This document shows positions 8,012 to 64,000 of a stretch of 64,000 nt of DNA, piece by piece. This DNA is from Acidimicrobiaceae bacterium (GTDB lineage Bacteria; Actinomycetota; Acidimicrobiia; Acidimicrobiales; RAAP-2), in contig PMFA01000011.1 of the NCBI GenBank assembly GCA_003155915.1, positions 1 to 64,000 on the forward strand, given 5' to 3'. The notes below the pieces were generated by a model. That model worked only from the letters and a program-made list of their open reading frames with translations, made no database searches and was not told where the DNA came from. The position numbers and the translations under genes are program-made. How positions within the stretch are numbered: the first letter of the stretch is position 1; each line of letters begins with the position of its first letter.

Positions 8012-8575
8012 ATGTCACTCAACGTTGAAACGATCCTCAGTGAAGCGCCAGCGACCCGAGCGGCCGAGTTGCGCATGTTTTTCGAGTCGTTGAAGTTGCC
8101 GGAAGGACGACTCGATGCCCGCACGCTCGTGCGGATCACCGACGCCGTCGCGGCTCGTGCGGACCTGTTCGAAGATCTACTCGTCGACGACGAAGTGAAT
8201 CGTTGGTGGTTCCAACTGTGGGTCACCGAAAGTTACGAAGTCCGTCTACTGACCTGGGAGCGCGAACAGTCATCGGACTGGCACGATCACGGTGGCTCAT
8301 CCGGGGCCTTTACGGTCACTGCCGGAGCACTCTACGAGGCGTACCGAGCCGAGGACCACTTCAGCGTCCGTGATCACCATTACGTCGCCGGCGACAACGG
8401 TTCGTTCGGCCCGGAGCACGTGCATGACATGATCTACGAAGCGGGCAAACCGGCCGTCAGCATCCACGCCTATTCGCCGCCGCTCAGCGGGCTCACGGTC
8501 TACGACCGAACTCGATTTGGCTTCGTGGCCCGCGACTTCGTGAACGAGGAGCGACGCGCCGAAGAACTCTCGTAA
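8012..8575 (+). CDS. Cysteine dioxygenase family protein (cupin)
   Basis: A 187-residue cupin of the type I cysteine dioxygenase family, a mononuclear Fe(II) enzyme that oxidises cysteine to cysteine sulfinate. Iron ligands are H91 and H93 in a WHDHGGS motif and a His in the later HVHD motif (H136/H138). The C-terminal SIHAYSPPLSGLTVYD supplies the conserved His and Tyr. A related thiol substrate, such as 3-mercaptopropionate, is possible. ATG 8012 is chosen because AAGGAGG lies just upstream; the longer reading from a TTG at 7985 runs through that site. Confidence 0.85.
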   Translation: MSLNVETILSEAPATRAAELRMFFESLKLPEGRLDARTLVRITDAVAARADLFEDLLVDDEVNRWWFQLWVTESYEVRLLTWEREQSSDWHDHGGSSGAFTVTAGALYEAYRAEDHFSVRDHHYVAGDNGSFGPEHVHDMIYEAGKPAVSIHAYSPPLSGLTVYDRTRFGFVARDFVNEERRAEELS

Positions 8576-8590
8576 GTCGTCGCGCGAAAA

Positions 8591-9628
8591 TCAGTCGGCG
8601 ACGGGCGAGTCGAGTGCGTCGGGCATCCCCCACGCCTCAGCCACGAGGGCGTGCGACTCGATTCGAGCCTCGAGTGAATGCAGTCGGGTCGAGATCATGA
8701 ACTCGTCGGCCGCTGTTCGTTGCTGCAGGAGAGAAAGCCCGTTCACAACGGTTTCTTGATCGCCGATGAGGTGCGTCGACATTGCCTCGGCGGCGATCTG
8801 CTCCTCGAGTGGAGTGAAGGAGTACGCCGCGGCCTCCTCCGGTGACGGCAACTGCCCGGGACGACCGGTTCGCATCTGCACGACGCTGAGCGCGGAAGAG
8901 CCCGACAGCCACTTCGCCTCTTGCAAACTTGGGGCACAGATCACGGAGACCGCGACCATCACGCGAGGCTCGGAAAGCACGATCGAAGGCTGAAAGTTCT
9001 CCCGATAGGTCGCGAGGGCCGCGTCCAATTCTCGTGGAGCGAAATGATACGCAAATGAGAAAGACAGACCGAGAATGCCCGCCAACTGCGCGCTGAATGT
9101 TGAGGATCCGAGCAACCACATCTCCGGCAGATAACCACTTCCAGGATTCGCGAAGGGGTGCGTCGGCGCACCATCGGATGGTAATAGGTACTTGATGAGT
9201 TCCACGACGTCATTGGGAAAACTGTCGGCGCCGAGGTCGAGGGTGCGCCGAAGGGCTCGAGCCGTCACGTGATCCGTTCCCGGTGCGCGCCCGAGACCAA
9301 GGTCGATGCGACCGGGGTGCAACGCTTCGAGCGTCGCGAACTGCTCGGCCACGACGAGCGGCGCGTGATTCGGCAGCATGACACCGCCGGATCCGACGCG
9401 CAGCGTAGAGGTCGCATCCGCGATGTGCGCGATGAGCACGGCTGGCGCGGAACTCGCCACGGCGGGCATCCCGTGGTGCTCGGCGACCCAGAGTCGTTTG
9501 TAACCGAGTCGCTCTATCTCAATGGACAACGCCGTCGTCTCAGCGAATGCGCGGGCCGGTGACGATCCCGTCGCGACGGTCGCGAGATCGAGGACGGAGA
9601 GGGGGATCACGGAGAGGGCCGTTTGCAC
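8591..9628 (-). CDS. LLM-class flavin-dependent oxidoreductase (MsnO8-like)
   Basis: A 345-residue luciferase-like TIM-barrel monooxygenase using reduced FMN. Family marks are the [11 protein letters not shown] segment, the [39 protein letters not shown] block and a C-terminal region that selects hits by score over a sliding range. It fits the MsnO8/YhbW-like group, whose substrates are mostly unknown. The start is GTG at 9628 with a poor ribosome binding site, so the N-terminus may begin slightly later. It converges with the cysteine dioxygenase gene, 15 bases between stops. Confidence 0.85.
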
Positions 9629-9659
9629 GCGGGTTGATCAGTAGTGATGTTCGCCCGCC

Positions 9660-49444: not shown

Positions 49445-50620
49445 TCACTCCCAAATGGCAGATCCCGTGGTGGGATCGAAGAATTCCAATCGAATGGGAT
49501 CGATCGAGAACTTGAAGGTGTCGCCCTGACGAACTTCGTGTCGAGGCTCGATTCGAGCGACGCAGTCAACGGAGAGTTCCACACTCTCCTCGTCCTGATC
49601 CCTCGACCCCTTCGTCGCATTGGAGTCCTCCGCCTGAACCATGGGGGCGTCGTTTGTGAAGTGAACTAAGAGTTCCGAGCCGAGCGCCTCGACGACCTCA
49701 ACCTCCCCCACGAAAGCGGCGCCGGGACGATCATCGCTGGGCGCGCGTAGATCTTCGGGGCGTACGCCAACGACGATCGGCTGGCCAGCGAATCGCCTGA
49801 GACCTGGGTGAAGGGTCACGACGTCGCTCGATAGACCAATGTGCTGACTGCCGAGTGCAACCCCAGTCAATTCAGAATTCAGTGATCCCTCGAAGAGGTT
49901 CATGGCCGGCGAACCGATGAATCCGGCGACGAATAAATTGGTCGGGCGGTCGTAGAGAACTTGCGGAGCGTCACACTGTTGGAGCACGCCTGAACGCAGC
50001 ACCGCCACCCGATGTCCCAGCGTCATCGCTTCAGTTTGATCGTGGGTGACGTACAGCGCCGCCACGCCAATTCGCTTTTGGACCCTGGCGATTTCCGCGC
50101 GCATCTGAACTCGAAGCTTGGCGTCCAGGTTCGACAGTGGTTCGTCCATCAAGAAGACGTTCGGTTCACGCACGATGGCCCGGCCCATTGCGACGCGTTG
50201 ACGCTGTCCTCCCGAGAGTTGACTTGGCTTGCGATCGAGCCAATCTGATATCCCGAGAACGTTGGCGGCGCTCTTGACCCTCTTCGCGATTTCCGCCTTC
50301 GGAACCTTCTTCATCTTCAGAGCGAAGCCGATGTTTTGTGCGACGTTCATTTGCGGATACAACGCATAACTTTGAAAAACCATGGCGATGTCACGGTCTC
50401 TCGATGGGACATCATTGACGACTTGATCGCCAATGCGGATGACACCGGACGAGATGTTTTCCAGCCCCGCGATCATCCGAAGCACGGTGGTCTTTCCGCA
50501 GCCCGATGGGCCCACCACCACCATGAGTTCACCATCGTCTACCTGTAGGTCCAGTCCGTGGACGGCTTCGAACCCGTTGGGGTAGACCTTGGTCACGCTC
50601 TCGATGCTGATTGACGCCAT
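49445..50620 (-). CDS. Carbohydrate ABC transporter ATPase (MsmK/UgpC type)
   Basis: A 391-residue ATPase: Walker A GPSGCGKTT, signature LSGGQRQR, Walker B VFLMDEP, switch His in VTHDQ, then the OB-fold regulatory domain common to sugar importers (about 240-391, with VGVRPEDLR). It is the missing ATPase for the permeases at 52566-54432. The ATG is set by GAGGAGA six bases upstream; the open frame further upstream has no such signal. It is separated from the GH66 gene by 140 bases with no clear promoter. Confidence 0.92.
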   Translation of the reverse strand: MASISIESVTKVYPNGFEAVHGLDLQVDDGELMVVVGPSGCGKTTVLRMIAGLENISSGVIRIGDQVVNDVPSRDRDIAMVFQSYALYPQMNVAQNIGFALKMKKVPKAEIAKRVKSAANVLGISDWLDRKPSQLSGGQRQRVAMGRAIVREPNVFLMDEPLSNLDAKLRVQMRAEIARVQKRIGVAALYVTHDQTEAMTLGHRVAVLRSGVLQQCDAPQVLYDRPTNLFVAGFIGSPAMNLFEGSLNSELTGVALGSQHIGLSSDVVTLHPGLRRFAGQPIVVGVRPEDLRAPSDDRPGAAFVGEVEVVEALGSELLVHFTNDAPMVQAEDSNATKGSRDQDEESVELSVDCVARIEPRHEVRQGDTFKFSIDPIRLEFFDPTTGSAIWE

Positions 50621-50760
50621 CTTCTTCTCCTCAACTCGCTCTTCGCGAGTCATTTCTCTTCGACCACCACAATGTTTTGTCCGCCACGCAGTGACGCGGC
50701 AACCTACACTGACGTTCAACCGACGACGCGTTGACTACGGCGCGACCACTCGCGAGTCCC

Positions 50761-52464
50761 TTAGACATCGGCGTGCCCTTCGCGGCGCAGTCGAAGTACG
50801 GACCACCCTTTGATCAGAGGCAGCGTGACTTCGAGAGCTCGACCTTGACGGTGCGGTACGACGACAGTCTCAAGTGCGACGAAGTGTTCATCGCTCGCAC
50901 CGAGCACTGCCGCCGACACCGTCCAAGATTCGAAATGACTCACGAGCACCCTGACCTTCACGCTGGACAGTGTGCCTGGTGTGGTCGGTTCTGACCATTT
51001 CCCGTTCTCACTACCCGTGAGGTCGAGCACGCCCACGCTCACCAGACCATCGGCATGATTGACGCGGGCAAAGAGGCTCCCCCCGACGGGCTCCGGGCGC
51101 ACCGGCGCACCGGCCTCAATACCGACGGCACCATTCTCGTCACCTATTTCGTACCAACTCGTGTCCTCGCCGTCGACAAACAGATCTCGACACCGCAGTG
51201 TGAAGTGGCGCCACGCCGTGACTTCATCGAGCTCTTCAGAGTTCAGGATCGCGTGCTTCGGGTAGTAGGGATCACAGAGCGCGGCGCCTTTATCCCCATA
51301 GATGAGGGCACTGGCACCGAGTTGCGTCGAGATGGCTTCGCTGAGGACAACCGTCCGAAGTGACGCCTCGCGAGCGGGCCCCTCGACGGGCCCGCTCGCG
51401 CGGTCGATGCCCCACACGGGCGGATAACACGCAATCGAACCGCGGAGCACTTCGCCGCGATCAGCGCCAGGACCGAGCAGGCCCGAGACGCCGGAGCTTC
51501 GGTCCAACAATCCTTCAAAGTGACGCCATTCGTCATTCGGGGGCCAGATTTCGCAGTAGCGAAATCTGGGTCCCGGGGCGAGGCGCGCTCCCGAAGGAAC
51601 GCCATTCACTTGATTGAAACTTATGAGTACGTCGGGCCAGGCGTTTCTCGCGAAACGTAGAAAGGATTCGTACGCCCTGCGCATGTCGATGGCGTTGCCG
51701 TCGGCGTCGAAAGCGATGCGCGGATATCCGTAGGTGTCGATGTGGAAGCCGTCAAATCCGATCGCCTCGGCGGCCGCGCCGTAGGACTCGACGAAGTGAC
51801 GTTGCCACGATGCATTCCCAGGGTTCGCCAGCACGATCTGGTCCATGAAACGAATGGCCTCGCCGTGGTCGTCGTACATGAGCATCTCGGGATGCTGTTT
51901 CGCGAAGCCGTGACCGACGGCGTAGATCGGCACGTAGGCGTGGGTTACTGAACCCTGAGCGCGCAGTCCGGTCGCGAGTTCTCGAAGGGCGTCGAATGAG
52001 ACAGGTCGATGCGACGGGTCCTCCCAACCACTCTTGGGACCGAGCGGCTCGGTGTAACTGGCCATCCAGTCGTACACCTGGACCACGGTAGAGCGAAGGG
52101 AGCGGTGCCACTTCAGAATCGAAGCGACGTCGTCGACCTTGAAAGACGTCGCAAATCCATGGACCGGCCGCTCGCCCGGATGTGCTCCGATCGTCGTGAT
52201 GGATTCGGCGAGGAGCCGACCACTCTCGTCAATCGCCTGTACGGCGTACGTACCGGAACGCAGGTTCGAAAGCGTCCATCGGTCGCCGTGAACAGCTTCG
52301 AAGGATTCTCCGGAGGCCAGCAGCGCCCGTATTCGTGCGGTGCGAAGAGGTACGTCATCAAACGCGATCTCTTCAGTGGTCGAGTGAAATGCGCGTAGCT
52401 CTCCGAACCTCTGAGATCCGTCGTCGTGATCCGACGTGACGTCCTTGTCAGCGCACACGTTCAT
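50761..52464 (-). CDS. GH66 dextranase-type enzyme without signal peptide
   Basis: About 567 residues in the GH66 fold: an N-terminal beta domain, then a TIM barrel with the QVYDWMASY segment, HAYVPIYAVG, the proposed nucleophile Asp243 in GFDGFHIDTYG, and acid/base Glu305 in YCEIWPP, then a C-terminal beta domain. GH66 enzymes are endodextranases or cycloisomaltooligosaccharide glucanotransferases. No signal peptide is present, so it should act in the cytoplasm on imported saccharides. The first 12 residues of the open frame start with TTG; I prefer ATG 52464. It follows the permease gene. Confidence 0.85.
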   Translation of the reverse strand: MNVCADKDVTSDHDDGSQRFGELRAFHSTTEEIAFDDVPLRTARIRALLASGESFEAVHGDRWTLSNLRSGTYAVQAIDESGRLLAESITTIGAHPGERPVHGFATSFKVDDVASILKWHRSLRSTVVQVYDWMASYTEPLGPKSGWEDPSHRPVSFDALRELATGLRAQGSVTHAYVPIYAVGHGFAKQHPEMLMYDDHGEAIRFMDQIVLANPGNASWQRHFVESYGAAAEAIGFDGFHIDTYGYPRIAFDADGNAIDMRRAYESFLRFARNAWPDVLISFNQVNGVPSGARLAPGPRFRYCEIWPPNDEWRHFEGLLDRSSGVSGLLGPGADRGEVLRGSIACYPPVWGIDRASGPVEGPAREASLRTVVLSEAISTQLGASALIYGDKGAALCDPYYPKHAILNSEELDEVTAWRHFTLRCRDLFVDGEDTSWYEIGDENGAVGIEAGAPVRPEPVGGSLFARVNHADGLVSVGVLDLTGSENGKWSEPTTPGTLSSVKVRVLVSHFESWTVSAAVLGASDEHFVALETVVVPHRQGRALEVTLPLIKGWSVLRLRREGHADV

Positions 52465-52565
52465 CAGCCTGAACGAATCCTGTGACGTCCGCAACCTCAA
52501 CGATGCGGCGTCGCGACACCGAGGCGTCTACACCAGTGGATCCGGTCGAACGACTGCGTGGGGGC

Positions 52566-53486
52566 CTAACGAATGGCACCGAGCGACACCCCCGAACGGA
52601 ACCAGCGAAGTGAGATGAGAAAGACAACGATGACGGGCACCGTGGCGATCACCGACGCCGCGAAGAATGGCCCCCACGCCACCGTGTGGACCCCGATGAA
52701 ATCGGCCAGGCCCACGGGCAGGGTGTAGTTCTGGGAAGAGTTGATCATCGTGAGGGCCACGGGAAATTCGTCCCACGACGCGCTGAAGATGAACATCGAC
52801 ACGACGGCGATTGCGGGAAGCGCCAGAGGCACGATCAGTCCCCACAAGACTCGAAGGGTTCGCGCACCGTCAAGTCGGAACGACTCCTCGTACTCCTTGG
52901 GGATCGCCTCGAAGAAACCCCGCAAGAGGAAAATCGTGAATGGCAAGTTGGACGCGACGTACAACAGCACAAGACCGGTCAACGAATCGAGCAAGTGAAG
53001 CCGATCCATCAACAGGAACTGTGGGATCAACAACAGCAGGTTGGGAACGGCGAGACTCGCGAGGAAGAAATAGAAGATCGTCTGCTTCAATGGAAACTGG
53101 TAACGCGCGAACGCAAAGGCCGCCAATGACGCGAAGACCACGGTGATCACGACGGTTGCGAACGCCACGATGAGGCTATTCAAGAAATAGTGGCTAAAGC
53201 TGTTCTCAGTCCAGGCCTGCACGTAGTTCTGCACCGTCGGGTGCGTCGGAATGAGCACCGTCGCACCGAGCAACCCGCCGTTGGGCTGAAACGAAAGAGA
53301 GAGCATGTAGAGTAACGGCCCGAGCGAGGTCACCGACAAGATGATGGCGATGACCAGACGCGATTTATTGCGACGGCGCGCACCGAAGAGCCCGGGGCCG
53401 GCGGCCGTTGCGGGAGGCTTCTTCGGCGGCTTCTTCGGCGGCGCCATTTCCGTCGATAAAGTCGCGGTGCCGTCGAACCTAGACAT
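52566..53486 (-). CDS. Sugar ABC transporter permease (MalG type)
   Basis: A 306-residue membrane protein with six predicted helices and the EAA loop EEYEESFRLDGARTLRVLWGLIVPLALPA. The N-terminus has a PPKKPPKKPP tract before the first helix. The start ATG lies eight bases inside the MalF-type gene; an internal ATG at 53447 is possible. Confidence 0.92.
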   Translation of the reverse strand: MSRFDGTATLSTEMAPPKKPPKKPPATAAGPGLFGARRRNKSRLVIAIILSVTSLGPLLYMLSLSFQPNGGLLGATVLIPTHPTVQNYVQAWTENSFSHYFLNSLIVAFATVVITVVFASLAAFAFARYQFPLKQTIFYFFLASLAVPNLLLLIPQFLLMDRLHLLDSLTGLVLLYVASNLPFTIFLLRGFFEAIPKEYEESFRLDGARTLRVLWGLIVPLALPAIAVVSMFIFSASWDEFPVALTMINSSQNYTLPVGLADFIGVHTVAWGPFFAASVIATVPVIVVFLISLRWFRSGVSLGAIR

Positions 53487-54432
53487 CGTGCTGCCTCAGG
53501 ATGCGAATTTCTGCTGCACTGAAACCGAAGAGTATGACCGCTAACAGCGACGCCAGGGCCGCTGCGTAGCCGAAGGCGAAGTTGGAGAAGGCCTGTTGGT
53601 ACATGTACGTCATCAACGACTGCGTCGAGTTATACGGTCCCCCCTTGGTGATTTCAAAGATCTGTGTGAAAACCTGCGCCGCCCCGATGACGAGCAGGAC
53701 GGTGACGAATGTGACGGCGCCGCGGATAGAAGGCAACACGACGTTTCGCCAGACCCGAAACTCATTCGCCCCGTCGATGCGAGCCGACTCGACGAGTTGG
53801 CGAGGAATGCCATCCAAGGCGGCGAGGAAGATGATGAACGACCAGCCAACACCTTTCCAGATGCTCAGGAGCCATATGACCCCGTTCGCGGTCCAAGTCT
53901 GAGCAGTCCAGTCAACGCTCACGGTATGGCCGACGAAGAGACCCGCAAGCCCGTTCATGACACCGCCCTGGGACGCAAAAATGTAGGAAAACACCCAACT
54001 CACGACTACCCACGACGTGACGACTGGTATGTAAATGCAGGCTCGCCAGAACATCGAGCCGGGCATGTGGTCAGTCAGCACTGCCGCCGCGAAGAGGCCA
54101 ATCGCCATTTGGATCGGCACGGTGATGACGATGAAGAGAAATGAGTTGAACGCCGCCGTTCGAATGACGGGATCGTGGAAGATGGCGGTGTAATTCGACC
54201 AGCCGACGAACGGGTCCGACACTCCGGGGAAGATGTGCCAGTTGTAGAAACTGATGTCGAACTGACGATAGATCGGGTAGATCGTGAACACCCCGTAAAT
54301 GACCAGGGCTGGGACGAGGAGGAGGTACGGAGTGGCGATTCGACGGGCCCGCAGTGAGCGACGGGACCGTCCCGAAACAGCAACCGGCGCCTTTGACGCT
54401 GAGTGCTGCTCGAGACGGTCCATCTTGCTCAT
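53479..54432 (-). CDS. Sugar ABC transporter permease (MalF type)
   Basis: A 317-residue membrane protein with the EAA loop RQLVESARIDGANEFRVWRNVVLPSI and about six helices after a short basic N-terminus. It begins eight bases after the binding-protein stop, in the usual order binding protein, MalF, MalG. Confidence 0.92.
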   Translation of the reverse strand: MSKMDRLEQHSASKAPVAVSGRSRRSLRARRIATPYLLLVPALVIYGVFTIYPIYRQFDISFYNWHIFPGVSDPFVGWSNYTAIFHDPVIRTAAFNSFLFIVITVPIQMAIGLFAAAVLTDHMPGSMFWRACIYIPVVTSWVVVSWVFSYIFASQGGVMNGLAGLFVGHTVSVDWTAQTWTANGVIWLLSIWKGVGWSFIIFLAALDGIPRQLVESARIDGANEFRVWRNVVLPSIRGAVTFVTVLLVIGAAQVFTQIFEITKGGPYNSTQSLMTYMYQQAFSNFAFGYAAALASLLAVILFGFSAAEIRILRQHDV

Positions 54433-54440
54433 TTCGCTTG

Positions 54441-55730
54441 TTACTGCTTAAACGTTGAGTTCGCTGCCGTGGTCGCAGCCGCAAGACCTGCAGCAACTGT
54501 GACCTTGCCGGCCAACATCTCCGCCAGAGCGTTGGAGAAGTCCGTGTCGAGTTCTCCGTAGTTCTGGAACACGGGTCGGGCCCTCGCGGTCAAGAGCGCG
54601 GTCGCGAACACCTTCAATGCTGGGTTCTCGATCGCCTCATTCGCCGAGTCCGTCTTGTACGCCGTCATGTCACCAGCGCCGGCCATTGCCAGTTGGGCGA
54701 AAGGAGACTGGAGGTACTTGACGAACTTGATCGTGTCTGCCTCGTTCTTCCCACCCTTAGCAATGACCAGGTCCTCGCCACCGACCACCGAAATCGATCC
54801 ACCGGGACCAGCAGGAATTGGCTCCGTGGTGTAACCGGTGAAGTTGGCCTGCTTGTACGTGTTGGTCGCCCATGGTCCGTCCATGTACATTGCGTACTTG
54901 CCCGTCGGGAATCCAGTCTCACCACTGATCGAGCCCGAGCCGCCGACGAAGTCGCTACCGATCACGCCAGTCGATTCCAGTGTCACCAACTGCTGCACGG
55001 CAGCGGTCATCGTGGGACTGTCCATGAATCCGCTGGACGTCGTCAACGCCTTGTTCGCAAAGTTGGCGCCGTCAGTCCAAACAAACGGTCCGACGTTCCA
55101 GATGTCGGTGCTGTCAACGCCAAGTCCGTACTGGCCCTTGGACGGGATCGTCAAAGTCTGAGCGTCCGCCATCATTTGCGCGTACGTCGTGGGCGCAGTC
55201 AGTCCCGCAGCCTTGAAGTCAGCCGTGTTCATGAACAGCACCTGCGTGTTCGTGTCATCGGGAATTCCGTAGTAACCGCCATTCCATAGATTGGTCGACA
55301 ACGGTCCGGGGTCGGCGGCCTTCTTCATGGCGGGGAACCACTTTTGCTTGGACGTCTCGACCAGCGTCCCTTCAGAAGCCAGCTGGGGAACCCACGCAAT
55401 GTCCGAGCGCATCAAGTCCGGTGGATCGCCCGCCGCTGACGACGCAATGAATTTCTGCAGCATCCCTGCGTACGGCAACGTGTCATCCTTGACCTTGATG
55501 CCAGGGTTGGCTGACTCAAAGGCAGGTATGACAACTCCGTTCATGACTGGTGTTTCCGTAACGTCGTTATAGGCGTTCCAGAAAGTAACCCAATGCACTT
55601 TGGGAGACGCCGACGCCACGCCCGAGCCAGAGAGGCCGATTATGGTGCCACCGCCGACGAGGGCAACGCACGCAACGGATAATCGCGTGATTGTGCCGAC
55701 TCTTCCCCTTACTAATTTGTGAATCTTCAT
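54441..55730 (-). CDS. Extracellular sugar-binding protein, family 1
   Basis: A 429-residue solute-binding protein: Sec signal (basic KLVRGRVGTITR, hydrophobic core, cleavage near ASASP), then the family 1 fold with VTFWNAYND and YAMYMDGPWATNTYK. As in the other binding protein of this window, no lipobox Cys is present. By context it should bind isomaltooligosaccharides. GAGG lies nine bases before the ATG. Confidence 0.92.
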   Translation of the reverse strand: MKIHKLVRGRVGTITRLSVACVALVGGGTIIGLSGSGVASASPKVHWVTFWNAYNDVTETPVMNGVVIPAFESANPGIKVKDDTLPYAGMLQKFIASSAAGDPPDLMRSDIAWVPQLASEGTLVETSKQKWFPAMKKAADPGPLSTNLWNGGYYGIPDDTNTQVLFMNTADFKAAGLTAPTTYAQMMADAQTLTIPSKGQYGLGVDSTDIWNVGPFVWTDGANFANKALTTSSGFMDSPTMTAAVQQLVTLESTGVIGSDFVGGSGSISGETGFPTGKYAMYMDGPWATNTYKQANFTGYTTEPIPAGPGGSISVVGGEDLVIAKGGKNEADTIKFVKYLQSPFAQLAMAGAGDMTAYKTDSANEAIENPALKVFATALLTARARPVFQNYGELDTDFSNALAEMLAGKVTVAAGLAAATTAANSTFKQ

Positions 55731-55914: not shown

Positions 55915-57162
55915 TCACGCCCCCAATCCTCGTGCGTCCGCATCCGAATCACCGATCAGTGGGAAGATCACGCCGCCTTCGTCGGAGCCATCAAATGATT
56001 CGAGCGCAATCGACAGCACGACGTACATGGCGTGCGACCACGTAAGGTCCCGTGCTGGCGGGCCCCATCGGTCGACCCATTCTCGAAAGTGCGGAGCGTC
56101 TCGCAGTTCGCCGCCGAATTGCTCGCCGAGGCGGCCCTCTTCATCGAAGCGCTCGGAAATCCACTCGTGACATCGACGCGCGCCTTCGAGGTCGCCGACC
56201 GTGAGGTAGTGCCAACCGAGTGACGCCGTGAGCACGGGCCACGCGCCGCTGCCGTAGTAGATGTCGGTGGGATACCGACGGATACCGCCAACGAGCGAGA
56301 GCTGCTCCTCAATGGAGGCCACCGTTCGAACATAGGATCGATCAGTGGGTTCGACCACACGGAACGGCGTAGAGAGCCACAGCGCGCTGGCGTCGACATC
56401 TGCATTTTCGTTTGACTTTGCGTAGATCCCGAGTTGAGCGGCGCTCGCTCTTACTCGCTCCTTCACCGCAAGGGCACGTTCGAGTAGTTGGACGTCATTC
56501 AATAAACGAGCGGCTGTCGTGAGTCCGCCGTACACGCAGGCGAGGGTCGACGTATGGAGAGCTGATCCGCTCTCCTCCCACACGTCGTAGCAGGGACTCA
56601 GCGCGAACGACGCGAGGTAGCGACCCACTCGCTCTACGGACGCTAAGAACTCCGCTGGCACCCCGTCCTGACCCGTGATCAGCAAATGTTGGCCGAGCGA
56701 CCATAGCCACGTGCCGTAGCCGTCGATCTGAAAGTTCGGCCACTCATCGGTGACCGTCGATCCGTCCAACCCGAATCTGGCCGGCGGCATGTGTGACGGA
56801 TCGAGCTTTTCGCCTCGCTCGTGGCGCCCGATGACGTCATCGATGATGCCGCTGATGCCCCCGACGGCCGCGTTGACCCAAGAGTGGAATCGACGCGAGG
56901 CCTCGTGCTCGTCAGCTCGGTCAAGTGCGTAGGCACAGAAGGAACCATCGCGTAACCAGCTGTAGTGATACTCGGCAAAATCAGGAGACGCAATGAAGGC
57001 GCCGTTGTCGCTCTGGAGCCGAAGAATGGAGTCCACACTGTTTCGAACCGAAGAGAGCTCAATTCCTTCACTCAACTCATTCTCGATTCCTTGGAAGAAA
57101 TCCTTCTTGCGCGGTGCCTTGTCACGTCGTGGGCCGATGCCATATCGCGAGACTTTTGTCAT
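55915..57162 (-). CDS. Cytoplasmic GH15 glucohydrolase (isomaltose glucohydrolase-like)
   Basis: A 415-residue (alpha/alpha)6 enzyme of family GH15. Conserved parts: YSWLRDGSFCAYAL, NFQIDGYGTWLWSL, CYDVWEE with general acid E196 (or E197), HTSTLACVYGG, the general base E347 in GRLGEQF and the RDLTWSHAMYV segment. It releases glucose from non-reducing ends. With no signal peptide and GH66 neighbours, alpha-1,6-linked isomaltose is the likely substrate, as for the Kribbella isomaltose glucohydrolase. ATG 57162 lies 41 bases inside the ROK gene, after GGAG. Confidence 0.87.
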   Translation of the reverse strand: MTKVSRYGIGPRRDKAPRKKDFFQGIENELSEGIELSSVRNSVDSILRLQSDNGAFIASPDFAEYHYSWLRDGSFCAYALDRADEHEASRRFHSWVNAAVGGISGIIDDVIGRHERGEKLDPSHMPPARFGLDGSTVTDEWPNFQIDGYGTWLWSLGQHLLITGQDGVPAEFLASVERVGRYLASFALSPCYDVWEESGSALHTSTLACVYGGLTTAARLLNDVQLLERALAVKERVRASAAQLGIYAKSNENADVDASALWLSTPFRVVEPTDRSYVRTVASIEEQLSLVGGIRRYPTDIYYGSGAWPVLTASLGWHYLTVGDLEGARRCHEWISERFDEEGRLGEQFGGELRDAPHFREWVDRWGPPARDLTWSHAMYVVLSIALESFDGSDEGGVIFPLIGDSDADARGLGA

Positions 57163-58423
57163 CTGCTCCGGGCATGCTGAAAGACTCGCGCAAGACGAGC
57201 GTGGCAGCACCGACGGCCCACGTCTCATCGCCCCAACGCTGCACTTTGATCTCAACTTGACGGCCGAGATTGGCGAAGGTCTGTTCACGAACCGCGCTCA
57301 CAATCGGATCCAAGAATGGTCCGCCAAGATCCGTGCCTTCACCACAGATGATGAGCATCTCGGGATTCAAGAGCGTGATCATGTTGGCCACAGCCAGTCC
57401 GAGCTTCTTACCGGCACTCTCGATTACCTCGAGCGTCGGGGGGTCCTCGGTGAGAACCAAGGCAATTAGGTCATCGCGAGAGATCTCGCGGCCCTGGCGT
57501 TCGCCAACTCTGCGGCGTAGGGCGTCTTCGCCAACCATGGCTTCAAGGCACCCGAATCGGCCGCATTCACACAGTGGTCCGCCGGGGTCAACGATCATGT
57601 GTCCGAATTCGCCCGTTGCTCCATTCGCCCCTCGGTAGAGCGAGCGATCAATGACGATGCCCAGCCCGATGCCACGACCGACCGTCAAAATGACAAAGTC
57701 ATGCGCGTCATGGGCGTCACCAGCCCATTTTTCGGCGACGGCGAGCGTGTTGACGTCATTCTCAACCCACACCGGCATGCCCAGATGGCGACGAAGCGGT
57801 TCGGCGAGTTCGACATTTGACCATTGGAGCAAGTGAGAAAAGTTGCACGTGCCTCGATTCGTGTCGATGATGCCCGAAAGTCCGACGCCGACGCCCAACA
57901 CTTTGGCCCGCGGCAACCTCGCGGTTCGAATTGCTCGTCGCACCTCGATCTCGATGGCGTGAATGGCAGCCGCCGAATCTCCCACAAGGGGGACGTGAAG
58001 TTCCTGAGTAACCACAATCTGGGCAGCCAGGTCGCAAATGACCGTGGTCACTCCATCGCCCCGAAGTTTGATGCCAACGACGAATCCGGCCTTCGGATCA
58101 ACGCTAAGCAGCACAGGCGGGCGCCCTCCACTCGATGGCGCCGTTGACACTTCAATGAGAATTCCTCGCTCGAGTAATTTGTCGACGATGGTCGACACGG
58201 TCGCAGCGCTCAAAAGACTTTGTCGCGCGAGATCCGCTCGAGATATTGAACCGGCCCGTCGAACGAGTTCAATGAGCAGACCTACGTTCAGATCCCTCAA
58301 CAATGATCGGGAGGCCCTTTGCGAGTCCGGCCTCGCAACGGGCCCCCGGTGACCATTCGCATCAGGAGCCTCAAAGGAAGAACGCTCCGGTTGGGTGAGA
58401 GCGTTGGGAATTCTGCGAGCCAT
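57122..58423 (-). CDS. ROK family transcriptional repressor (NagC/XylR-like)
   Basis: A 433-residue protein: winged helix-turn-helix near 45-105 (SISRADLARQSLLSAATVSTIVDKLLERG), then a ROK sugar-kinase-like domain with NGATGEFGHM and the zinc motif CECGRFGCLEAM. The first 40 residues look disordered. ROK repressors bind a sugar or sugar phosphate that releases DNA. Its promoter carries a palindrome at the start site, so autorepression with control of the locus is likely; glucose or isomaltose is the plausible effector. Confidence 0.92.
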   Translation of the reverse strand: MARRIPNALTQPERSSFEAPDANGHRGPVARPDSQRASRSLLRDLNVGLLIELVRRAGSISRADLARQSLLSAATVSTIVDKLLERGILIEVSTAPSSGGRPPVLLSVDPKAGFVVGIKLRGDGVTTVICDLAAQIVVTQELHVPLVGDSAAAIHAIEIEVRRAIRTARLPRAKVLGVGVGLSGIIDTNRGTCNFSHLLQWSNVELAEPLRRHLGMPVWVENDVNTLAVAEKWAGDAHDAHDFVILTVGRGIGLGIVIDRSLYRGANGATGEFGHMIVDPGGPLCECGRFGCLEAMVGEDALRRRVGERQGREISRDDLIALVLTEDPPTLEVIESAGKKLGLAVANMITLLNPEMLIICGEGTDLGGPFLDPIVSAVREQTFANLGRQVEIKVQRWGDETWAVGAATLVLRESFSMPGADDKSLAIWHRPTT

Positions 58424-58802: not shown

Positions 58803-59486
58803 CTAAATGGCGCTGACGTCGATCGAGACGACCGGAGCGCTCGAACTCGCCGAAGAGCGGTACGTTCGAACGGTGATACGAAGTCCATCGAACGTTTTCG
58901 AATTGGTGGCCGTGACAAGCCCATTCGCATTCGTGTTGAGTATGCGACCAGTGCACCATTTTTGCGCCGCCTTGGAAGAGAATTCGCGACACGTCAATGA
59001 GTCGAACGCCACTTGGCCCTCGAGAATTGTCTTACTTGAAGTATCGAGAATCGAAACGACCTGGACGTCGACGACTTCCGGATAGCCATTGATTTCCACT
59101 GCCGTATAGAGACCCTTGTCTTGCCCGAGCGTCCTCGGGACGCCCTTGATCTTGCTCGCAACTTTGAAGATCGTTCTCTTGTCAATGTAGTGAAAGAGTT
59201 CTTCAACCTCGGTACGAGTGGCGCCCAGAGTCGGTGAAAAGCCGGTCAGGGTGACATTCAGACGGTTCGCACTTCGAAGAAGTGAGGTGACGCCACGAGA
59301 GTTGGCAGTATCTCCCGTCGAGGTTGCACTCGCGATTGACGCCGTCGAAACCGCGAATACCATAGCGATCGCAAGTACGAACAACGCCAGTTTGAAAAAC
59401 GTGTTCGACCGACGGGATGAAATGACATTGGAAGGACGGGCAGCCGTTTGAGCCGCCCGTCCTTCCAACGTTCGTTGAGTCAACAT
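58803..59486 (-). CDS. Small exported protein downstream of the GH15-GH66 gene
   Basis: A 227-residue protein with an N-terminal signal-anchor or signal peptide (FFKLALFVLAIAMVFAVSTA). The mature part has two Cys (LTCREF and KWCTGR) that may pair, and mixed alpha/beta character. I do not recognise the family. It starts five bases after the stop of the giant hydrolase gene, so it is probably made with it and might assist the hydrolase at the cell surface. Confidence 0.7.
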   Translation of the reverse strand: MLTQRTLEGRAAQTAARPSNVISSRRSNTFFKLALFVLAIAMVFAVSTASIASATSTGDTANSRGVTSLLRSANRLNVTLTGFSPTLGATRTEVEELFHYIDKRTIFKVASKIKGVPRTLGQDKGLYTAVEINGYPEVVDVQVVSILDTSSKTILEGQVAFDSLTCREFSSKAAQKWCTGRILNTNANGLVTATNSKTFDGLRITVRTYRSSASSSAPVVSIDVSAI

Positions 59487-59490
59487 TCGC

Positions 59491-62400
59491 CTAGTAGTTG
59501 ACCCACGCCATGTCCCAATAATCGAGCGACGGCATTGTGAAGGTCACGTACTTGCCTCCACCGTCGGTGCCGGTGGCGAAAGTCAGACTCTGCGCGATAC
59601 CGCCATTGATGTCGGGTGACGCCACGTAGACGCTCACGGGTGCGACCGACGACGTGTAGTAGTACTTGACTGCCACATTCGTCTGCACCGTTGGCGCCGG
59701 CTGGTTTGCGCTGGTGTCCATCCAGTCAGCGCTCGTGAGATTCAACATGTTGATGAACTGAATCACGTCGGTTCCGGATATTGATTTAGCAAACGTCCAC
59801 ACCGTCCCCGCCGTGCCGTTCGTGCTGGTGGCCGCCCCACCGGTCAAGTCAATGACGTTGGAGTTCGGTGTTTCGCCGTTTCTCAACAGGTCCTCGTAGG
59901 CCGTGAGGAAGTTGTAGTAGCTCACCATCGACTGCTGCAAGCCCGCACTCATATACAGGTTCCCGTTGAGGTAGTTCGGCGCGTCGAGCATGTGGTCGAC
60001 ATCACCCAGCTCGATGTGGTCACCGCCGGACGCGAAGATGGTCGCGTCCTCATACAGCACGCCGGGTGTATTGAAGAATCCGGGATCAGTTGACGAGAAG
60101 CTGTTCGCGTAGGTCTGATCCGGATAAGCCGCCAGCACACTCGCTTTAGCGCCCGAACTCCAAGTGTTGTTGTTGTTGATGGCGGTCTGGAGGTCGTCGT
60201 AGGTCGTCTGACCGAGGAACGGCCAGCATTCGGTGTACAAGAAGGCCAGGTCGGCGTTCGTTGCGATCTGCTGTTGCCCGTACTGGCCAACGGCGTTGAA
60301 GACGATGTTCCCTCCGAGTGCGGTGTACGCATTAGTTAAGAAACCACTGAACTCATTGGCTAGATTGACCGACGTTCCGCTGCAGTTGTAGACCGTGCCG
60401 ATATTCCCGAAACCGTCCGCCTGCCAACCGTCGAAGGCGTAGACGTCATCAGCGTTCTTTTCGGCATTGAATATGTATGACTGCCACGAGGCGTTACCCG
60501 GATCGAAGAGCCAGAGATAGGGCGTGGCCAACGGTGGGTCGGAGAGCGAGACGTTGGCTTGGCTGGTGCAGTTCGTGTTGTACCAGAGTCCCCACGCCGA
60601 ATTGACTCCGCTGCCGTCGCTGCCGTATCCGGCCCAAGCGCCATAGATGAGGTTGTAACTCATCGCTACCGCCGAAATTCCATGCACGTCACTGATTAGG
60701 GTTTGGATGGAATGCTCGTAGTTGGTGTTGCTGTCGATGTTCACCCAACTGGCGGCTGGGGACGCGACTGTGCCGGCTAACGGCACGTGTTGCTTCCACT
60801 CCCAGTCGTAGAACTGGACGCCGTCTAGGTGGTAAAGATTAAGGCGATTCTCGATCAACGTCTGGGTGTAGTTGTCCGCGAAGTTGGTCACGAATCCATA
60901 GCGGGGGAACTTCGCCCATGATGAGGAGATGTCGACCGCTGTATTCGCGCTGTCGAGAACGACACCCGTCGAGTTGGTCAGCGTCGCCTTTACGAGGTAG
61001 CCCTGATAGTTAGTCGTCGGGGGAGTCCAGGTCAAGGGGTAGTTCAGAATCTGACCCGCGGCCAGGGAAACGGTGGCCGTTAGTGGCGAGCCGACCGCCA
61101 CACCGTTGTGGGTGAAGGTAAGAGTCAATGTCTCACCCGACTCGCTCACAGCTTGAGGGTTCACAACGTTGGTGTTGATCGTGACGTTCGTGCTGGGCGA
61201 GTACCTTGCGGCGTTCGTGGTCAGGCTTTCAATCTCGTGGCCAAGCGTGCTTCCGTATTGCCAAGTCGAAGTTGAATTAGCGATCTCGTAGTGAATTCCT
61301 GTGATGTCGTCGTCTGTCCACGTGCCTGAGTTGTCGTACGCCGTCTCAACGTCCATGTATGACCACGACCCCGCCGCCGCGCTTCCCGAACTCGTGATGT
61401 TGGTGATCGGTATCTCGAGCTCGATTCGGCCCGTCGCCGTGTCCCATTGTGGTGCTTGTGTTGAAAGGTTGGAATCCCAAGTCCAGCCACCACTCGAGTT
61501 CGCACTGAACATCGAATACGTCGTGCTATCACTCCAGCGCGCGAACAGATAGTTCATCGGATGATCGAGCGTGCCACCATAAAAGCCAGTGCTCGTGGAA
61601 TAGATCGAGCCCGAATGGTTGAAATCCTGAGCGTAGACCAGAACCGCAAAATCCGGAGCCGTATTGTACGCCGAGAGTGCTCCTGAGGCATTGTCATCTC
61701 TGATGTAGAGATTGGTCGCGTCGTTGGCGGCGTAGACCCGCTTCACGCTCGTCATCGTCGAACCCGACGTGCTTCCGGCCGGATTGCCGTCATAGAAGGG
61801 GATGCCCCTCCACTGCGGCCAGTCATTCGATGGCGTCGTCGTCTCGTTGACCGTGTCGTACGAGCTGACATTGGCGTTGGTGGGGTAGATGCGAGCGTCA
61901 TATTGCGACGTGTACGCGAGTGCGGACATCACAAACGTGGCCGCTGTGAAGGGCTCGCTCATTGTGCTGACGATCGGTTGGTTCGTAGACGAAATCGCCT
62001 CGCCCGGCGGCATATCGCCGACACCCGAGACGCCGACGTACCACTGGAGAATCGAAAGGGCGTTGGCTGTCTGTCCGGTGTACACCTCATACAGCGCAAC
62101 GAGCATTGACATATTGGGCCACGATGGTTCAGCGGCGCCGGCTTCGTTGCCCGCTGGACTGTAGGGACTCGTGTAGTAGTAATCGTCGCCCTCGTAGCGA
62201 GCAATTCCCCACGTGTCGTGCGTCAAGGCCTGTTGGACGACAGAGATCTGGCTCGCGGCTTGCTCGCTGTTGGCGTTGACGTCGCCGAGCGCAATCAACT
62301 CGTCGGACGAAGCGTCGATCGTCGTGTCCGGTGATCCCGATGACGTGACGCCCTGGTCGTAGTAGCCGGTGGTGTCGTTGTACTCGCCCGGGGTGCCCCA

Positions 62401-64000
62401 GCTGTACGAGCGCTGGATCGCTGACAGAATGGTGCTGGCCGATCCGTTCCACGCGTCGGCGTCGGTCGGATTGGACTTGGTGAGGGCCAGATGCGCCGCG
62501 GCCCGTAGGCCAGCAACGTAGAACGCTTCGCTAAACGTGTTGTACTGATCGGTCTGTTCCCAAATGCTGTTGTCCTCGGGACCGAGTCCATTGGTGCCAA
62601 CATTCGATTCGAGGAAGTTGGCCGCTGCCTGCACCGCCGGCCACACCGTCGTCAAGAAGGTGTTGTCTCCGGTGTCTTGATAATGTCGGTAGACCCCGAC
62701 CAGGAACTCCCCGACGCTGTCGTACTCCGGTTCGACGAACGAGACATAGTTTCCGGACCATAGGTCGTAGGTCGTATGCCAATAGCCGCCTGACTCTTGA
62801 TTGGCCGCCATCCATTCCCAATACTGCGCGGCCTCGGAGTAGTGACCCGAAGCGTCGAGGGCCATGGCGTCAAATGACGAGTCTCGCACCCACGCCTTGT
62901 AACCGTACGATCCTGGGTTCGTGGCCGCGGGGAAGAGGCCGTCACCGGGGTTCTGGGAGTTCTTGATCACGACGAGGTTGCGTAGGTACGCCGTGTTGAC
63001 GCCAGTGTCCGAGGTGGAAACTGTCTTGCCTGCGGCGAGCCACGTGGAGTAATCCGTCGCCGTCGTGCTGTACCAATAGGCACCCGTCTGGGCCCGCGCC
63101 GTGTCGACGGCCGATTGTGCGGCGGTCATTGTCGACTGGATACCCAGGTAGTAGTAGAGAGTCTGTGACGAGTTCGGGGCAATGGTGACAGAGTTCTGGA
63201 AACCCATGTCCACGTTGGGTGTCGAGATCGAGCCATTGTCGTGCAGTGAGCCAGTCGCGTCGAATTGGCTCCAGGCACTCGCCGTGGGGTCGGTTGACGT
63301 GAGGTCCGAGTCGTTACCAACTTGATACGACGAAGCAGTTTGCAATGCGCCTAAGAAGATCACGTACTGACCCGACGCCGTCATATTCGCGAACATTGCC
63401 TTGCGCGTGGTGTCATAACTCCCAGCGACATTGTCACTGAGGTTCGTGTTGTTGACATGCACTTGGTCGAGGACGTTCCAGTTGTATGACGTCGTTGAGG
63501 AAGGGTTGGTCAACGTGTACTTGACCACCATGAACGGCTCGTTCGGAACCATGACGAAATCTCGCTCCATCTGGATAGGAGTCGAAGATCCGTTGTAGGT
63601 CCCATAGGAGCCGTGGAGCACGCCGTTTTCGTCGAGGTAGGCCGTCGACGTGAAGTCTTGAGGTTGGTCGTACTTCACGTTGTCAGTCGTGTCGCGGAAG
63701 AATCCGGTGTAGTCGTTGATCTGGTTTACGCCCCAATTCGGAGAGTAGTGCAGCTCGGCAATGCGCGGCCCGTACGTCGCCGTTGCCAGTTGGTTGAGCT
63801 TGGGAGCCATCCAAAGGGCCTGGATGTTCGACCAGTTGGAGAGGTACAAACTCGCGGCGGACGTGGACGTCGGCGTCGTGTTGGTGAGGTGCGCCTTTAC
63901 GGTATGTGTCGGACGGGGCGGGGCGTGAAAAACGACTTCGGCACCCGCAGTAATAGTTCCGGCGAGAACCATGGCCGCGACCACTAGCCCAATCAAAGTT
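59491..64000 (-). CDS. Exported GH15-GH66 fusion (glucodextranase-dextranase), 5' end outside window
   Basis: At least 1,501 residues; the frame is open to the window edge and the first visible residues are the hydrophobic core of a signal peptide, so the start is beyond 64000. Order: beta supersandwich (about 40-330); GH15 (alpha/alpha)6 domain (about 330-735) with general acid E480 in SIWEQ and base E623 in AAEPSWP; a DOMON/CBM9-like beta domain (about 740-905); an Ig-like domain (about 915-1030); a GH66 TIM barrel (about 1035-1400) with nucleophile D1194 in FDGWQADGFG and acid/base E1256 in LYTECWP; a C-terminal beta domain. Both catalytic sets look intact. It should cut dextran internally and release glucose from the ends. 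Confidence 0.9.
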   Translation of the reverse strand, partial: TLIGLVVAAMVLAGTITAGAEVVFHAPPRPTHTVKAHLTNTTPTSTSAASLYLSNWSNIQALWMAPKLNQLATATYGPRIAELHYSPNWGVNQINDYTGFFRDTTDNVKYDQPQDFTSTAYLDENGVLHGSYGTYNGSSTPIQMERDFVMVPNEPFMVVKYTLTNPSSTTSYNWNVLDQVHVNNTNLSDNVAGSYDTTRKAMFANMTASGQYVIFLGALQTASSYQVGNDSDLTSTDPTASAWSQFDATGSLHDNGSISTPNVDMGFQNSVTIAPNSSQTLYYYLGIQSTMTAAQSAVDTARAQTGAYWYSTTATDYSTWLAAGKTVSTSDTGVNTAYLRNLVVIKNSQNPGDGLFPAATNPGSYGYKAWVRDSSFDAMALDASGHYSEAAQYWEWMAANQESGGYWHTTYDLWSGNYVSFVEPEYDSVGEFLVGVYRHYQDTGDNTFLTTVWPAVQAAANFLESNVGTNGLGPEDNSIWEQTDQYNTFSEAFYVAGLRAAAHLALTKSNPTDADAWNGSASTILSAIQRSYSWGTPGEYNDTTGYYDQGVTSSGSPDTTIDASSDELIALGDVNANSEQAASQISVVQQALTHDTWGIARYEGDDYYYTSPYSPAGNEAGAAEPSWPNMSMLVALYEVYTGQTANALSILQWYVGVSGVGDMPPGEAISSTNQPIVSTMSEPFTAATFVMSALAYTSQYDARIYPTNANVSSYDTVNETTTPSNDWPQWRGIPFYDGNPAGSTSGSTMTSVKRVYAANDATNLYIRDDNASGALSAYNTAPDFAVLVYAQDFNHSGSIYSTSTGFYGGTLDHPMNYLFARWSDSTTYSMFSANSSGGWTWDSNLSTQAPQWDTATGRIELEIPITNITSSGSAAAGSWSYMDVETAYDNSGTWTDDDITGIHYEIANSTSTWQYGSTLGHEIESLTTNAARYSPSTNVTINTNVVNPQAVSESGETLTLTFTHNGVAVGSPLTATVSLAAGQILNYPLTWTPPTTNYQGYLVKATLTNSTGVVLDSANTAVDISSSWAKFPRYGFVTNFADNYTQTLIENRLNLYHLDGVQFYDWEWKQHVPLAGTVASPAASWVNIDSNTNYEHSIQTLISDVHGISAVAMSYNLIYGAWAGYGSDGSGVNSAWGLWYNTNCTSQANVSLSDPPLATPYLWLFDPGNASWQSYIFNAEKNADDVYAFDGWQADGFGNIGTVYNCSGTSVNLANEFSGFLTNAYTALGGNIVFNAVGQYGQQQIATNADLAFLYTECWPFLGQTTYDDLQTAINNNNTWSSGAKASVLAAYPDQTYANSFSSTDPGFFNTPGVLYEDATIFASGGDHIELGDVDHMLDAPNYLNGNLYMSAGLQQSMVSYYNFLTAYEDLLRNGETPNSNVIDLTGGAATSTNGTAGTVWTFAKSISGTDVIQFINMLNLTSADWMDTSANQPAPTVQTNVAVKYYYTSSVAPVSVYVASPDINGGIAQSLTFATGTDGGGKYVTFTMPSLDYWDMAWVNY

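Follow-up and report, generated by a model that had tools for sequence, protein, structure and literature searches.

The minus strand at one end of a 64,000-nucleotide stretch of DNA from an Acidimicrobiaceae contig (hereafter, the window) encodes a single exported polypeptide in which a GH15 unit precedes a GH66 unit. We regard it, with slightly better than even confidence, as a bifunctional enzyme that remodels α-glucan and is encoded first in an α-1,6-glucan uptake operon: the GH15 unit would transfer glucosyl groups, the GH66 unit would cut the resulting chains, and the fragments would be imported and finished in the cytosol. The sequence data establish the domain identities, the conserved residues, the gene content of the operon and the recurrence of the fusion, and we infer each of these reactions. 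GH15 and GH66 are already known to occur joined in TtCITase of the heat-loving Firmicute Thermoanaerobacter thermocopriae, a GH66 CITase with a C-terminal GH15 glucosyltransferase domain (PMC12446779, PMC13084667), and what is new here is the reversed order. No characterized enzyme with the GH15-first order was found in the literature. An earlier, sequence-only reading of the window had likewise named no characterized enzyme with this order.

Architecture of the fusion protein

An uninterrupted reading frame spans positions 59491–64000 and extends 30 nt beyond the window, where it starts with an ATG at 64029, on a contig of 79,837 bases; a GGGGAG motif lies 7 nt before this ATG. The full-length protein has 1512 amino acids (163 kDa, pI 4.1), the first 10 codons lying outside the window, and the frame within the window has 1502. 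Residues are numbered here by the full-length protein, so that E480, residue 666, D1194 and E1256 of the window frame, the numbering of the sequence-only reading, become E491, E677, D1205 and E1267. The N-terminus (MERRQG..LIGLVVAAMVLAGTITAGA), judged by eye, resembles a signal peptide of the Sec type. Pfam assigns both catalytic families above their cutoffs: GH66 (PF13199) matches over the whole domain with an E-value of 2e-151 and 505.8 bits against a curated cutoff of 23.7, and GH15 (PF00723) matches with an E-value of 1.2e-12 and 48 bits against a cutoff of 22. Together with the uninterrupted frame and the N-terminus, these assignments uphold the original proposal of one exported chain carrying both families.

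The GH15 unit (residues 52–720; 61870–63876, minus strand, as are all window features given below) comprises an N-terminal β-sandwich like the N2 domain of the dextran dextrinase (DDase) of Gluconobacter oxydans and a catalytic domain. It is followed by a β-rich middle domain of about 200 amino acids (residues 721–925; 61255–61869) and by the GH66 unit (residues 926–1512; 59494–61254), which has its own N-terminal β-domain. The middle domain had been called DOMON/CBM9-like, a label that we do not retain: residues 721–925 gave no Pfam match at E ≤ 1 and, with a seven-sequence profile, no PDB match at E ≤ 5. The Ig-like domain proposed as a further linker belongs to the GH66 fold itself: TpDex, a dextranase (5axg), aligns from residue 918 of the 1502-residue window frame onwards, which takes in this region. 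Fold prediction had been suggested as a check. The AlphaFold models, built on shallow alignments, were poor (pLDDT 46 for residues 52–935 and 41 for residues 722–1512), and fold searches with them, which we treat as weak evidence, ranked 9ju0 (DDase) and 5axg first.

Immediately 5' of the fusion ATG, just beyond the window end at 64000 (L003:5651–5663), lies an inverted repeat, TTTACTAAAGTAAG, which is a possible candidate for a ROK operator. Half sites resembling AAAGTAAG were found before several other fusion genes.

Relatives and catalytic residues of the two units

In PDB searches, the GH15 unit matched the DDase of G. oxydans (9ju0) with an E-value of 1e-73 as a single sequence and 2e-130 as a profile, and all other matches had E > 1e-5. 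DDase is a retaining GH15 transglucosidase that converts maltodextrin to dextran (PMC12446779). Over its catalytic domain, the unit shares 39% identity with DDase, with which three other GH15 proteins share 20–22%. In a phylogenetic tree sampling DDase, the RYN34 protein, two Actinospica proteins, the fusion proteins and four outgroup GH15s, all but the outgroups form one group (support 100/99). Within this group, the fusion and Actinospica proteins sit beside, not inside, the pair formed by DDase and RYN34, in an internal order that long branches make uncertain.

The sequence-only reading had described this unit as glucodextranase-like. The Arthrobacter globiformis glucodextranase (AgGD; 1ug9/1ulv) belongs to the same GH15 fold family and came directly after DDase in the low-confidence fold search (rank 4, behind three DDase chains, with the pLDDT-46 model), but it gave no match to the GH15 unit at E ≤ 1 with the single sequence or at E ≤ 0.01 with a profile against the PDB. 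As no sequence search supported it, the glucodextranase assignment was dropped as the lead.

Alignment to DDase places the predicted acid or acid/base at E491 in S3 (62557–62559; DDase E671), the residue already picked out as the GH15 acid, and the predicted nucleophile or base at E677 in S5 (61999–62001; DDase E858; motif MPPGEA). The second glutamate originally proposed, E623 of the window frame (E634 of the full-length protein, in the motif AEPSWP), is not a catalytic residue; its position is occupied by Ser in DDase and by Thr in the RYN34 homologue. According to a 2025 proposal, the retaining GH15 cluster is marked by a Phe-Tyr and a Gly-Glu dyad (PMC12446779). The Gly-Glu dyad of S5 is present (G676-E677). 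At the Phe-Tyr dyad of S4, our protein has Tyr-Tyr (Y617-Y618), as do the remaining fusion proteins and the two from Actinospica, which keeps the nucleophile-bonding tyrosine (the Tyr798 equivalent) and replaces Phe797 of DDase with Tyr. Judged by these alignments, strict membership of the retaining DDase cluster fails on this one stated feature. All checked subsite −1 residues are retained, as are Phe602-Val603 of the +2/+3 subsites and the equivalents of Thr871, Glu874 and Thr877; changed are Trp803 (to Tyr), Asp672 (to Gln) and Ser872 (to Met). E677 is followed by Ala, whereas inverting GH15 enzymes carry Gln at this position. Inverting glucodextranases of the AgGD type have Gln after the general base and Pro before it, and AgGD thus differs from the fusion on both sides of the catalytic glutamate (PMC12446779).

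Outside the catalytic domain, the fusion differs from DDase in its attached GH66 unit and in having neither the C-terminal β-helix nor the CBM35-like N1 domain, as the chain has only about 51 residues ahead of its N2-like domain. N1 is essential in DDase, yet it occurs in only about half of the cluster, and the authors of that study caution that sequence alone cannot reveal the mechanism of a GH15 enzyme (PMC12446779). From its closest relative and its conserved residues, we conclude that the GH15 unit most probably works like DDase.

The GH66 unit is closest to TpDex of Thermoanaerobacter pseudethanolicus (E-value of 4e-127), which it matches over the whole length; TpDex is a dextranase chain of 618 amino acids, whereas the GH66 unit here is the C-terminal part of a 1512-residue protein. 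The predicted nucleophile, D1205 (60415–60417), occupies the position of the D312G mutation of 5axh, and alignment and conservation point to E1267 (60229–60231) as the acid/base. Both had been correctly singled out by the sequence-only reading. Characterized CITases carry a CBM35-1 domain inserted in the seventh loop of the barrel, and this insert determines the distal subsites for sugar binding (PMC5408701). This insert is missing from the fusion, as it is from TpDex, and the TpDex alignment passes straight through the region. CITase 3wnk aligns in two pieces that flank its insert, and in a blastp comparison the GH66 protein of RYN34 aligns only as far as the insert region. Because the best relative is TpDex, aligned through the insert region, we filed the unit as dextranase-type and demoted a CITase identity, though it may perform some cyclization.

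The operon and the function of the fusion

Downstream of the fusion, on its own strand, Pfam and homology searches indicate a ROK-family regulator (57122–58423; Pfam), a cytosolic, isomaltose-glucohydrolase-like GH15 (55915–57288), a solute-binding protein (54441–55730), two ABC permeases (53479–54432 and 52566–53486), a second and presumably cytosolic GH66 in which no signal peptide was seen (50761–52500), and a sugar ABC transporter ATPase of the UgpC/MsmK type (49445–50719). A second ROK gene lies upstream of the fusion gene and is divergent. The cytosolic GH15 is nearest the isomaltose glucohydrolase KfIG (E-value of 1e-62); its homology begins at about residue 77, and its true start is probably downstream of the listed GTG. 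The closest solved relative of the solute-binding protein is TdCIBP (9xf5; E-value of 6e-61, next best 1e-26). It keeps seven of the nine ligand residues listed as conserved among CIBPs, with Thr in place of Arg91 and Trp275 of TdCIBP.

This gene content recalls the route proposed for Tepidibacillus decaturensis, in which the GH15 46GT makes isomaltooligosaccharides from maltodextrin, a CITase cyclizes them, CIBP and a transporter import the products, and an intracellular dextranase and an isomaltose glucohydrolase finish the process (PMC13084667). By homology, our operon encodes nearly the same maltodextrin-to-α-1,6-glucan pathway. The exported enzymes, however, are separate genes in Tepidibacillus and fused here, the CITase there contrasts with a dextranase-type GH66 here, and our operon also includes a gene that we call ORF227.

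We propose that the GH15 unit would act as a DDase-like retaining enzyme, with E677 as nucleophile and E491 as acid/base, moving glucosyl groups from the non-reducing ends of α-1,4-glucan (maltodextrin, starch or glycogen) to 6-hydroxyls and building isomaltosyl chains. Judging from its family, the GH66 unit would then use D1205 and E1267 to cut these new chains, or ready-made dextran, internally, giving mainly linear isomaltooligosaccharides. Homology further suggests that the TdCIBP-like protein and the ABC importer would take up the fragments, that the cytosolic GH66 and the isomaltose-glucohydrolase-like GH15 would convert them to glucose, and that the ROK regulators would control the operon. 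There is no GH13 (PF00128) or GH31 (PF01055) match in the genome that carries the window, which is 95.65% complete, so 4-to-6 conversion would be this organism's own route from α-1,4-glucan into an α-1,6-type pathway. GH13 is present in 13 of 14 control genomes, which makes its lack here unusual; with the families searched, the α-glucan enzymes of the genome are those of the fusion operon plus one further GH15. Several features count against our proposal, namely Tyr-Tyr in place of the Phe-Tyr dyad, the changes at Ser872 and Asp672, and the missing N1 domain. So does the lack of a genomic amylase gene to supply maltodextrin, which means that the donor would have to be external.

A more specific version of this proposal, to which we give somewhat less than an even chance, holds that one secreted chain converts α-1,4-glucan to linear isomaltooligosaccharides in two steps, without cyclization, for private import; that its GH15/GH66 join is independent of, and reverse to, that of TtCITase; and that its N-terminal ancestor was a GH15-plus-middle-domain unit that is still free-standing in Actinospica. 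Compared by description, TtCITase shares with the fusion the combination of GH66 and a DDase-type GH15 on one chain and a nearby gene for a CIBP-type solute-binding protein. It differs in having GH66 first, where the fusion has GH15 first, and in coming from Bacillota rather than Actinomycetota; the fusion, for its part, has a dextranase-type GH66 without CBM35-1 and an extra middle domain between the units.

An alternative that we consider possible but unlikely is that the protein depolymerizes dextran, with the GH66 unit cutting internally and the GH15 unit acting as an inverting exo-glucohydrolase, either glucodextranase-like or of cluster II, that frees glucose from the ends. Among DDase relatives, those in cluster II have just the Gly-Glu dyad, and retention is not expected of them (PMC12446779); the altered Phe-Tyr dyad and a position in the tree beside the DDase and RYN34 pair could both fit such a protein, and the importer and cytosolic enzymes would suit environmental dextran use too. 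Yet glucodextranase is absent from every sequence search with the GH15 unit, the catalytic glutamate is followed by Ala where inverting enzymes have Gln (PMC12446779), and the Phe-Val pair of the DDase +2/+3 subsites is retained. It can also be argued, short of proof, that an external exo-glucosidase would destroy the oligosaccharides meant for the importer. The sequence-only reading had offered two functions for the protein. Making and then trimming isomaltosaccharides comes close to the reading that we favor, whereas combined endo and exo hydrolysis of dextran is the weaker of the two, given the DDase relationship and the Ala.

Cyclodextran synthesis, in which the GH15 unit would build α-1,6 chains and the GH66 unit would close them into cycloisomaltooligosaccharides for CIBP-like import, as TtCITase does, seems to us improbable. 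It has the precedent of TtCITase (PMC12446779, PMC13084667), a solute-binding protein nearest a cycloisomaltooligosaccharide-binding protein, and the match of the GH66 unit, at an E-value of about 1e-82, to PDB chains of only 576–592 amino acids that are labelled CITase (9sjg and others). However, the GH66 unit lacks CBM35-1 in the seventh loop of the barrel (PMC5408701), its best match is a dextranase, and in the solute-binding protein Thr stands in place of both Trp275 and Arg91 of TdCIBP.

If the favored reading of glucosyl transfer followed by endo-cutting is true, a starch-to-α-1,6-glucan "private sugar" route described so far in Bacillota would reach the Acidimicrobiales (several from peat or bog). 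The protein would be a second GH15/GH66 fusion, in reverse order, and a one-protein enzyme from maltodextrin to isomaltooligosaccharides would be useful for prebiotic sugars. The Tyr-Tyr GH15 clade also directly tests the 2025 proposal that retaining and inverting GH15 enzymes can be told apart by the combined Phe-Tyr and Gly-Glu signature.

Recurrence and origin of the fusion

A scan of genome contigs identified the full-length architecture in four other actinobacterial metagenome-assembled genomes (MAGs), palsa_509 (L037), GL140_3 (L038), bog_808 (L040) and YP4.bin5 (L046), with 77–86% identity per part. Because it recurs at full length in these MAGs, the fusion is not an assembly join. All five assemblies, including our own, have the same architecture with no stop, and both catalytic pairs are invariant across the five proteins. 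Among the fusion proteins, dN/dS is about 0.04–0.11 in the GH15 unit, the middle domain and the GH66 unit, values that are rough because dS is near saturation; by this measure, both halves are under purifying selection. The rival view that assembly or annotation created the join, or that one half is inactive, may draw on the fact that all full-length copies come from MAGs, but it is highly improbable and already largely refuted by the shared uninterrupted architecture, the dN/dS values and the invariant catalytic pairs.

Extra copies of the fusion are cut by contig ends or rearranged (L039, L041 and L044). In the last of these (L044:8804–11355), GH15 residues 1–392 read in frame into GH66 residues 176–349, and the GH66 end lies in a second frame after them; a deletion or a frameshift could account for this, as could misassembly.

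Across 298 genomes of the order, the full-length fusion occurs only in the window's genome and in one genome of a different family (G241), and it is missing from the eight congeners and three further members of the same family that were searched. This patchy distribution, together with 81% identity, suggests that the fusion spread by horizontal transfer. Plasmid and phage tblastn searches returned distant GH15s only or nothing, and viral contigs contained no relative. The nearest relative of the window's fusion (59494–63876) differs by half: the GH15 unit is closest to palsa_509 (dN of 0.08) and the GH66 unit to bog_808 (dN of 0.10, versus 0.18 for palsa_509), a split that hints at recombination between domains.

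Both Actinospica genomes encode the GH15 unit with the middle domain at its C-terminus as a stand-alone protein of 934–935 amino acids, and GH66 was found in neither. The simplest story is that such a GH15-plus-middle-domain unit was joined to GH66 within an acidimicrobial lineage; alternatively, Actinospica may have lost its GH66. In Actinospica durhamensis (L042:4852–12619), the stand-alone gene adjoins genes for a solute-binding protein, permeases, a GH13 protein (8032–9645) and ROK regulators.

RYN34 has a DDase-like GH15 gene, with the Phe-Tyr and Gly-Glu dyads both intact, adjacent to a GH66 gene that bears a CITase-type insert, an arrangement that amounts to the same idea in separate genes. 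The two are consecutive there with a GH13-like gene (weak α-amylase match, E-value of 2.5e-5; L035:10453–17527).

ORF227 (58803–59486) encodes an exported or anchored protein of no accepted family, with two conserved cysteines and only a sub-threshold match to PNGase_F-II_N (E-value of 0.008). Within the 298 genomes of the order, its strong matches fall in the two fusion carriers only, and it adjoins the fusion gene in palsa_509, GL140_3, bog_808 and YP4.bin5. From this pattern, it looks like a dedicated partner of the fusion.
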